NCBI GenBank assembly: GCA_029219285.1
Contig: JAQXTC010000015.1
Location: 1-36,329 of the forward strand
Length of the DNA stretch: 36,329 bases
Origin: Clostridiaceae bacterium
Lineage (GTDB): Bacteria; Bacillota; Clostridia; Clostridiales; Clostridiaceae
Direction: 5' to 3'
The notes beneath the pieces are model-generated. The model was not told the DNA's origin, made no database searches, and saw only the letters and a list, made by a program, of their open reading frames with translations. How positions within the stretch are numbered: the stretch's first letter is position 1; every line of letters begins with the position of its first letter. Shown here in pieces: positions 19,240-21,688 of this stretch. The position numbers and the translations under genes were made by a program.

Positions 19240-19758
19240 TTGGAAAGTTTTATAAATATATTAAATGATTTTACACCATATATTTTATGTGGTATGGCAG
19301 TAATAATATTTTTATTACTTATTTTAGTTATATCATTATTTAAGGCTGTAAATAGAGTTGAAGCTAGATACAGAAAAATGATGAGAGGAGTTTCTAATAA
19401 AAATTTAGAAGAAATGATAATTGAGCAATTAGATAATATTGAAAAAGCTAATGTTAATTCTGAAGAAGCTCTTAAGAAATGTGATGATATAAGAGAAAAG
19501 GTAAAAGAATGTGTTCAAAAAGTTGCTATTATGAGATATAAAGCTTTTGAAGACATTGGTAGTGATTTGAGTTTTTCTATAGCAATATTAGATGAACATA
19601 ATGATGGTGTTATGATTACAGGTATATATGGAAGACAAGAAAGTACTACATATGCGAAACCAATTGATAAAGGTATTTCAAGATACGATTTATCAGAAGA
19701 GGAAATTCATGTGTTAAATCAAGCAGTTAATAAAGGTACAGTTGTAGAGACTGAATAA
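19240..19758 (+). CDS. DUF4446 family protein
   Basis: 172 aa with an N-terminal TM segment and the MRYKAFEDIGSDLSFSIAILDEHNDGVMITGIYGR core. Located downstream of spo0J. TTG start. Confidence 0.85.
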   Translation: MESFINILNDFTPYILCGMAVIIFLLLILVISLFKAVNRVEARYRKMMRGVSNKNLEEMIIEQLDNIEKANVNSEEALKKCDDIREKVKECVQKVAIMRYKAFEDIGSDLSFSIAILDEHNDGVMITGIYGRQESTTYAKPIDKGISRYDLSEEEIHVLNQAVNKGTVVETE

Positions 19759-19760
19759 TA

Positions 19761-19797
19761 AAAAACTGATGACTATCTAATTAGTCATCAGTTTTTT
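19761..19797. terminator. Bidirectional terminator between DUF4446 and yyaC
   Basis: AAAAACTGATGACTA-tctaat-TAGTCATCAGTTTTT, 15-bp stem between convergent genes. It overlaps the yyaC 3' end. Confidence 0.88.
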
Positions 19798-20408
19798 ATT
19801 TCTGTAGATGATATATATTTACTTTCAATTATATCAATGAGTCTTTTTCGACCTTTTGAAGATTTTAATATAAAGTGATAAATTGCAGTAGCAATTGCAT
19901 CAGCTAGTAACATCACAGTATATAATCTTGTATTTTGTAAAACCATAAATTCAAAAGATCCTGATATGTTAACAATACCTGTAATGCTCATATCTCCTAC
20001 AGATGGTAAATCTTTATTCATAGCTGCACCAGGCATAAGAGGTTTCTTTTCTATAAAGACTTTTCCAATATTTTTTAAGGAACCTAAACAAGCATCAATA
20101 GCAACAATGTATGGATTATCAAAAGTTAATTGTATCTTGTTTAATATTGAAACAAGATTTTTTGAATGCACTGGATTCGATAAATTACCAAATACATAAA
20201 AATTTTCTCTTTTGAGTTGGCTTAATTTATGTCCAACTAATGGACCTAAAGAATCTCCAGTTGATCTATCAGTACCGATGCATAAAAATATTATTGGACG
20301 ATTACTTTTAACAATTGGTTTTAGTTCTTTAATTAAGTAATCTTTTATTTGTAATGCAGAGTTATCTGATGTTGCATCAACATAAAAGCATGTATCTGAA
20401 TTTTTCAT
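19788..20408 (-). CDS. yyaC: Sporulation protein YyaC
   Basis: 206 aa with PIIFLCIGTDRSTGDSLGPLVG and DACLGS..GDMSITGIVN, typical of the YyaC family. Confidence 0.92.
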   Translation of the reverse strand: MKNSDTCFYVDATSDNSALQIKDYLIKELKPIVKSNRPIIFLCIGTDRSTGDSLGPLVGHKLSQLKRENFYVFGNLSNPVHSKNLVSILNKIQLTFDNPYIVAIDACLGSLKNIGKVFIEKKPLMPGAAMNKDLPSVGDMSITGIVNISGSFEFMVLQNTRLYTVMLLADAIATAIYHFILKSSKGRKRLIDIIESKYISSTEIKN

Positions 20409-20411
20409 AAG

Positions 20412-20452
20412 AAATCCTCCTATACTGGATTATAGACAGTATAGGAGGATTT
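20412..20452 (-). promoter_or_regulatory. Perfect 16-bp inverted repeat sequestering the yyaC Shine-Dalgarno sequence
   Basis: AAATCCTCCTATACTG (20412-20427), 9-nt loop, CAGTATAGGAGGATTT (20437-20452). The minus-strand RNA has AGGAGG 7 nt before the yyaC ATG, fully paired with CCUCCU. Confidence 0.85.
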
Positions 20453-20457
20453 TATGC
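20429..20457 (-). promoter_or_regulatory. Candidate forespore SigF/SigG-type promoter for yyaC
   Basis: Minus strand GCATA (20457-20453), 15-nt spacer, GTCTATAAT (20437-20429), compared with the SigF consensus GYATA / GGNNANANT (one mismatch). Confidence 0.45.
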
Positions 20458-20464
20458 ATTTAAT

Positions 20465-21688
20465 CTATAACTTAAAATTATTTAATATTTTTAACGTATA
20501 ATTAATATCATCGATAGTATTAAAATAACTTAGACTCAATCTAACAGTACCTGTAGGAAATGTATTAATTGATTTATGAGCTAGTGGAGCACAATGTAAA
20601 CCAGCACGCGTTTTTATACCTTCTGATTCAAGTATGTAAGCTACTTCTGAAGGATCAAGGTTTTTATAATTAAAAGATAAACATGTAGTTGAATTTAAAT
20701 TATTCAAATCACCATAGACAGTAATTCCATCAATATTAAGTAATCCATCTAAAAGCTTTCCTCTTAGTGTAGATACATGATTTTTTATATGTTCTATTCC
20801 GATTTCATTTAAATATTTTATACTATTTAATAATCCAATAACTCCAGGCATATTCATTGTTCCAGATTCGAATTTATCCGGAAGAAAATCTGGTTGAGTC
20901 ATGGAGTGCGAAAGACTACCTGTTCCCCCTACGACTAGAGGCGTACAGTTTTTATTTAATTCATCATCTATTATAAATCCACCAATACCTTGTGGACCTA
21001 ATAAACTTTTGTGACCAGTAAAAGCAATAGCGTTAGCTTTGATTTCTTTCATGTCTATAGGTATCATTCCGGCGGATTGCGCTGAATCTACAACAAAGAA
21101 AATATTATTTTTAAAGCAGATATCACCTATTGATTTAATATCTTGTATAGAACCAGTAACATTAGAAGCATGTGATATTACTATTAATTTTGTGTTGGGT
21201 CTAATTTCATTTTCTATGTCTTTAGGATTTATAAAACCTTTTTGATCAGCTTGAACAATACTAATTTCAATTCCTAAATCATTTTTACATTGCATTAATG
21301 GTCTTAGTACTGAATTATGTTCCATTGAAGATGTTATGACATGATCACCTGATTTAAGAATTCCTTTTATTAAGGTATTTAAAGATGTTGTAATATTATT
21401 TGTGAAAATCACATTGTTAGGATTATTAAAATTAAAGAAGTTACAAATTGTTTCACGTGAAACATAAAGACTTCTACTACTTTCTAAAGAATTAGAATAA
21501 TTTGATCTGTTAGCATTACCACCTACATTAACAATGTAGTTATATATTGAATCAGCAACAACTTTAGGTTTTGGAAAAGTCGTGCTGGCATTATCTAAAT
21601 AAATATCCACTAAGTTCACCATCCAGTTATTTATAATTGAGAATATGTATTTAATTATAGTAATGAGTAATGTTACTTTAAAATACAA
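20465..21688 (-). CDS. Aminotransferase class V / cysteine desulfurase family protein (EF2568-like)
   Basis: PLP-binding AFTGHKSLLGPQGIGG and TRAGLHCAPLAHKS with N-terminal DIYLDNASTTFPKP. The true start is probably near 21622 or just downstream, not 21688. Confidence 0.88.
   Translation of the reverse strand: MYFKVTLLITIIKYIFSIINNWMVNLVDIYLDNASTTFPKPKVVADSIYNYIVNVGGNANRSNYSNSLESSRSLYVSRETICNFFNFNNPNNVIFTNNITTSLNTLIKGILKSGDHVITSSMEHNSVLRPLMQCKNDLGIEISIVQADQKGFINPKDIENEIRPNTKLIVISHASNVTGSIQDIKSIGDICFKNNIFFVVDSAQSAGMIPIDMKEIKANAIAFTGHKSLLGPQGIGGFIIDDELNKNCTPLVVGGTGSLSHSMTQPDFLPDKFESGTMNMPGVIGLLNSIKYLNEIGIEHIKNHVSTLRGKLLDGLLNIDGITVYGDLNNLNSTTCLSFNYKNLDPSEVAYILESEGIKTRAGLHCAPLAHKSINTFPTGTVRLSLSYFNTIDDINYTLKILNNFKL
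21449..21464. promoter_or_regulatory. parS: parS site 2, inside the desulfurase-like CDS
   Basis: TGTTTCACGTGAAACA exact consensus. On the minus strand it encodes the VSRET part of LYVSRETICNF. Confidence 0.95.

Follow-up and report, generated by a model that had tools for sequence, protein, structure and literature searches.

A forespore-type promoter nested in an RNA hairpin may insulate the spore gene yyaC from its upstream neighbour in Clostridium

The window analysed here, a stretch of 36,329 nucleotides from a Clostridiaceae bacterium, carries on its minus strand a gene for a YyaC-like spore protease immediately downstream of a cysteine desulfurase-family gene. The yyaC product scores 219.7 bits against the TIGR02841 cut-off of 84.9 (NCBIfam), which places it in the YyaC spore protease family. 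The desulfurase stop codon (20465) and the yyaC ATG (20408) are separated by an intergenic gap of 56 nt, and the following features lie in and around it:

20465 to 21610, minus strand: cysteine desulfurase-family gene adjoining yyaC upstream, start codon uncertain (TIGR01977, E 4.7e-148)
20453 to 20457, minus strand: GCATA, -35 element of a SigF/G-like promoter, flanking the 5' hairpin arm
20437 to 20452, minus strand: 5' arm of the hairpin (anti-Shine-Dalgarno), coinciding with the promoter spacer, AAATCCTCCTATACTG
20429 to 20437, minus strand: -10 element, in the hairpin loop, GTCTATAAT
20428 to 20436, minus strand: hairpin loop, 9 nt, TCTATAATC
20421 to 20423, minus strand: predicted forespore transcription start, 3' of the 5' arm, deduced from the position of the -10 element
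20412 to 20427, minus strand: 3' arm of the hairpin with the Shine-Dalgarno sequence, CAGTATAGGAGGATTT
20416 to 20421, minus strand: yyaC Shine-Dalgarno sequence AGGAGG, 7 nt from the ATG
20409 to 20414, minus strand: T-rich gap TTTCTT between Shine-Dalgarno sequence and start codon, a possible weak terminator U-tract
19788 to 20408, minus strand: yyaC, spore protease-like DUF1256 protein of 206 aa (TIGR02841, E 1.3e-65; PF06866)
19757 to 19800, no strand assigned: bidirectional terminator-like hairpin at the yyaC 3' end (inverted repeat with T-runs on both sides)

Read along the minus strand, the order is GCATA, AAATCCTCCTATACTG, TCTATAATC, CAGTATAGGAGGATTT, and cttATG. A repeat search bears out the perfect 16-bp hairpin holding the yyaC Shine-Dalgarno (SD) sequence that the first-pass annotation had described: between 20412 and 20452 (minus strand), arms of 16 nt with 100% complementarity enclose a 9-nt loop, and the RNA has a minimum free energy of -25.2 kcal/mol (z = -7.9), with none of 200 shuffled sequences folding as well. 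Perfect inverted repeats of at least 14 bp with a loop shorter than 15 nt occur three times in the whole window, the yyaC hairpin included, and mononucleotide shuffles of the window contain none of that size. The other two precede T-runs, and one of them sits between convergent genes. The hairpin at 19757-19800 is a 19-bp perfect inverted repeat located between yyaC and a convergent 172-aa ORF. An Rfam search yielded no family at gathering score, the best hit being RefA9 with 32.7 bits for a cut-off of 49. The genome to which the window belongs also encodes a second yyaC paralogue, whose leader (L147, G000:C213) reads CACCTCC ... CTCATATA ... GGGAGGTG followed by a GTG start and encloses a SigE-like -10 in an SD hairpin of similar kind; a hairpin of this type is absent from two other species examined (L148, L149).

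Promoters were scored against the SigF/SigG patterns GHATA-N15-GGNNANANT or GHATA-N17-CANNNTA. The window promoter, GCATA-N15-GTCTATAAT, has 9 of the 10 bases fixed in the SigF pattern, with the single mismatch noted at first reading, and is in register with the hairpin: the 5' arm fills the spacer and shares its last base with the start of the -10 element, the remainder of which lies in the loop. When both transcript isoforms are folded, the SD has a predicted unpaired probability of 0.00 in the read-through RNA and a higher predicted accessibility in the short isoforms, although in the one starting at 20423 it is predicted to pair weakly with the coding sequence (-5.5 kcal/mol), so that a "free" SD is to be understood in relative terms.

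We compared this leader with those of YyaC orthologues from 69 genomes of the genus plus named GTDB representatives (84 non-redundant leaders), using as a control set 152 other SD-led leaders from the same loci. The first-pass annotation had named absence of the hairpin from close relatives as the outcome that would count against its idea; on a symmetric score, 63 of the 84 Clostridium yyaC leaders carry a strong SD-pairing stem, versus 2 of the 152 control leaders, one of which is itself a yyaC. In almost every case the upstream gene is a co-directional open frame as long as the desulfurase, and its end often lies a mere 50 nt or so from yyaC. Some 17 of the 84 leaders have only a weak hairpin or have lost it, with no evident replacement terminator there, which implies that such a lock is not essential. 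Outside the genus, we found no such hairpin at yyaC, and the neighbours are usually different or divergent.

It is the pairing of the arms rather than their sequence that has been kept, with covariation of the kind that the first reading had proposed to look for. Watson-Crick pairs make up 83% in native arms and 70.5% +/- 0.85% after exchange of arms between species (2000 permutations). Along the YyaC protein tree, we counted 55 pair-keeping double changes versus a null mean of 12.8 (maximum 22) and 62 pair-breaking single changes versus 131.6, a contrast that is somewhat inflated as the null deals left arms anew without the per-sequence choice of best register. RNAalifold detected no structure when the leaders were aligned freely with MAFFT, since the register of the arms changes from one leader to another, and pairing was then scored by SD-anchored comparison. 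Departures from Watson-Crick pairing at the five SD positions comprise 30 U-G versus 5 others, and whole stems contain, with symmetric scoring, 75 G-U versus 26 A-C; such G-U-tolerated changes opposite the SD point to a helix in the sense RNA rather than to a DNA operator.

A SigF match of 9 or 10 out of 10 positions, with spacers of 14-15, is present in 81 of the 84 yyaC leaders (31 of them perfect), for a control frequency of 52 among 1546 SD-led starts in the genome of a relative (G006). The -10 element ends at a median of 21 nt before the ATG across the 84 leaders, so that, judging from the consensus, transcription would start past the 5' arm. In a clade that includes, among others, leaders L056, L057, L061, L064, L065, and L122, the hairpin has been lost and the promoter kept, indicating that the promoter itself needs no pairing. 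Taken as a whole, we have high confidence that the element is real, conserved, and functional.

Pattern scans of 12 genomes for GNATA, an anti-SD, and an SD in that order retrieved yyaC and two further genes, tepA and pbp. The first codes for a Clp-protease-like protein (PF00574) and lies behind an aspartokinase gene; the -35 element of the tepA promoter (GAATA-N17-CAAAATA in G006) overlaps the stop codon of that gene. The second codes for a class B transpeptidase (TIGR02214-like), lies behind the uridine kinase gene udk and has, in G006, a perfect SigF match (GTATA-N15-GGCTAGAAT). In this complete genome, scanned over 2.4 of its 2.87 Mb and the 1546 SD-led starts, pbp and tepA reach the highest in-register-promoter stem scores (45 and 40, most others being below 30). 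Among its 13 strict forespore-like promoters near an SD, those of tepA and pbp are also the only ones preceded by a co-directional gene ending at most 60 nt away and the only ones with a compact hairpin. The stem is present in 22 of 23 leaders where tepA follows aspartokinase; where tepA has been relocated behind another gene, stem and promoter are both absent in 10 of 10. The pbp version is common to ten species. The sequences at yyaC, tepA, and pbp differ from one another and share the SD complement alone. In the window's own genome, tepA (C33) and pbp (C103) do not match the strict patterns.

Several other observations were made in the course of these scans. The relocated tepA leaders are L338, L340, L341, L343-L346, L348, L349, and L351; the gene upstream of them encodes a signal-peptide-like protein of about 230 aa, which had no Pfam match in the one example scanned, and most genomes with a relocated tepA are also without the yyaC hairpin. 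G006 may offer a fourth case in a DUF378 gene (1576055, plus strand, L276): an Lrp-like gene lies 76 nt upstream, GCATA-N15-GGTTAAAAT is present, and the SD hairpin (-21 kcal/mol) is longer and made of two parts. Other pattern hits with SD complementarity, among them energy-coupling transporter-like (L184, L185), lgt-like (L187), and fabZ-like (L189) genes, were discarded for having no in-register promoter or weak stems. In the window's genome, the SD of a helix-turn-helix transposase-like ORF (L194, G000:C71:977-1035, minus strand) is enclosed in a long hairpin that looks perfect (-38.5 kcal/mol) and has a T-run after it, resembling the protection of insertion sequences against outside read-through. 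Finally, an HD-domain/helicase-like ORF of G006 (1515805, minus strand, L273), which follows a 264-aa Cas5-like ORF, has its SD in a strong hairpin (score 37) and no forespore promoter.

We propose, with a probability of roughly 0.7, that the forespore promoter nested in the RNA hairpin insulates yyaC from its neighbour as a promoter-swap lock that would silence vegetative read-through. The presumed read-through RNA from the upstream housekeeping gene, here the cysteine desulfurase, would hold both arms and have the yyaC SD paired, so that it would remain untranslated or, where the U-tract is good, be cut short by termination just ahead of the start codon. In the forespore, SigF or SigG polymerase would recognize the -35 element that directly precedes the hairpin, together with the -10 element in its loop, and start about 7 nt past the latter, and the resulting RNA, devoid of the 5' arm, would escape the hairpin and be translated. 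By either route, occlusion or termination, read-through would give no protein and promoter-started RNA would. The start site, the translational silencing, and the partial termination are what we infer from the sequences, and the comparative data back this logic, already outlined in the first-pass annotation; we hold with fair confidence that promoter-swap insulation is the function. A leader of no more than about 13 nt, as predicted for the forespore yyaC transcript, is one point counted against the lock. A broader proposal, for which we see somewhat less than an even chance, is that this is a recurring Clostridium element of about 50 bp that places a forespore promoter, the intrinsic terminator of the housekeeping gene ahead of it, and a ribosome-binding site on the same bases. 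A single hairpin would then act on read-through in two ways, by ending it or by silencing it, and only the developmental polymerase starting in the loop would give a translatable RNA; such elements would have arisen separately at yyaC, tepA, and pbp, and perhaps elsewhere, wherever a spore gene abuts a growth gene.

The most serious competitor is that the hairpin is mainly the intrinsic terminator of the upstream gene, its 3' arm and U-tract having been economically reused as SD and gap, the forespore promoter starting transcription within it, and occlusion being incidental. The SD-to-ATG gap is indeed 82% T in the yyaC orthologues versus 38% in control genes, and the terminator score d (d'Aubenton Carafa formula, E. 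coli-trained, threshold d>0) is positive in 33 of 84 yyaC and 7 of 33 tepA leaders versus 0 of 150 control leaders, and amounts to 33.7 for the single pbp leader scored (G006). These values weaken the first impression that the hairpin is not an obvious terminator. A small correction also applies to the remark that it has no good U-tract: in the window one is present though weak (GGA-TTTCTT-ATG, with d at -0.7, borderline on this E. coli-trained score), and in many relatives it is strong. A consensus terminator scan with a loop limit of 8, which leaves out the 9-nt loop, found none at the window hairpin. Like an intrinsic terminator, the element consists of a perfect stem with an A-tract before and a U-rich tract after it in many relatives; intergenic gaps of about 50 nt leave no room for another terminator, and the window's other two perfect hairpins of like size look like terminators. 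It differs from one in that its 3' arm is the SD and its U-tract runs into the start codon and is degenerate in several species, including that of the window. Moreover, the window's leader combines an intact SD stem with a broken U-tract, as do many leaders of tepA (d from -10 to -45), and pairing of the SD itself is not needed for termination. We regard a mainly terminating role as unlikely. Given the T-rich gap in relatives, a second role of the hairpin is probably to end transcription coming from the upstream gene, and we infer that occlusion would be the common function, to which termination is added where the U-tract allows.

The other alternatives fare worse than this one. The hairpin might act inside a forespore transcript that starts upstream, damping translation as does the small RBS hairpin of B. 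subtilis sigG, since RBS hairpins in sporulation mRNAs are known (PMC5942855). In 81 of 84 leaders, however, the conserved -10 element in the loop would place the start beyond the 5' arm, and a 16-bp stem, far stronger than the sigG hairpin of -6 kcal/mol, would shut translation off, making this very improbable. Slightly more improbable still is a DNA operator, a palindrome over the -10 region bound by a dimeric repressor or activator: the perfect inverted repeat with the -10 at its centre would suit it, but the arm sequence varies freely among species while the pairing is kept, departures opposite the SD are of the G-U-tolerated kind, and the three genes have nothing but the SD complement in common. 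As for a compositional palindrome without function in an AT-rich genome, its probability is negligible, since the z-score, the genus-wide conservation, the covariation, and the near absence of such stems from controls refute it; the hairpin is not due to chance.

The promoter-swap lock has parallels among known systems. In IS10-type elements, which are protected in this way from outside promoters, read-through RNA folds over the transposase start, a fold that is absent from RNA initiated at the promoter of the element itself; hiding of the start in read-through RNA would be shared with yyaC, which differs in being a cellular developmental gene and not a mobile element. The two precedents invoked by the first-pass annotation are both documented. 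In the leaders of the phage T4 genes e (lysozyme), soc, 49, and I-TevI, the SD is sequestered in long early transcripts, and the late promoters lie in the region of the 5' strand of the hairpin, so that late transcripts lack that strand and are translated (PMC3014915). As in gene e, the longer transcript would hold the yyaC SD in a stable helix, according to the predicted structure, and a second promoter would yield RNA without the 5' strand, judging from its consensus and position. In contrast with T4, the yyaC element resides on a bacterial chromosome, would involve sporulation sigma factors, and would receive its read-through from a neighbouring housekeeping gene; its 5' arm coincides with the promoter spacer, and a terminator-like U-tract is often present. 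In B. subtilis, a hairpin of 20 bp or more has been proposed to block translation of spoIIGA-sigE read-through RNA at sigG (spoIIIG); transcripts initiated at the sigG promoter are unable to form it (PMC5942855). That case is a proposal for a single gene, whereas the Clostridium element is genus-wide, occurs at three unrelated genes, shows covariation, and is far more compact. B. subtilis yyaC, described in the annotation as a forespore gene, is reported to be Gpr-like and SigF-controlled in that compartment (PMC12700454), two yyaC paralogues of C. perfringens are sporulation-specific in reporter assays (PMC9332280), and C. difficile tepA is listed in the SigF regulon (PMC3789822).

Our search of the open-access literature found no description of such an element at yyaC, tepA, or pbp. 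Several features appear to be new: promoter spacer, anti-SD, SD, and possible terminator are merged into one compact unit, which is conserved genus-wide, recurs at three unrelated genes of forespore type, and is tied to a growth gene read in the same direction. It would provide a testable bacterial counterpart to the T4 lysozyme switch in an industrially and medically important genus, as well as a ready-made insulator part for engineering, and it predicts that operon predictions and read-through RNA-seq misjudge the expression of such genes. The genes concerned encode a Gpr-like protease, a Clp-like protease, and a cell-wall transpeptidase, which a growing cell may need to have off, and the benefit would lie in keeping these two proteases and this cell-wall enzyme off during growth. 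With such an element, a compact genome could place a developmental gene right behind an always-on gene with no leak and no regulator protein.
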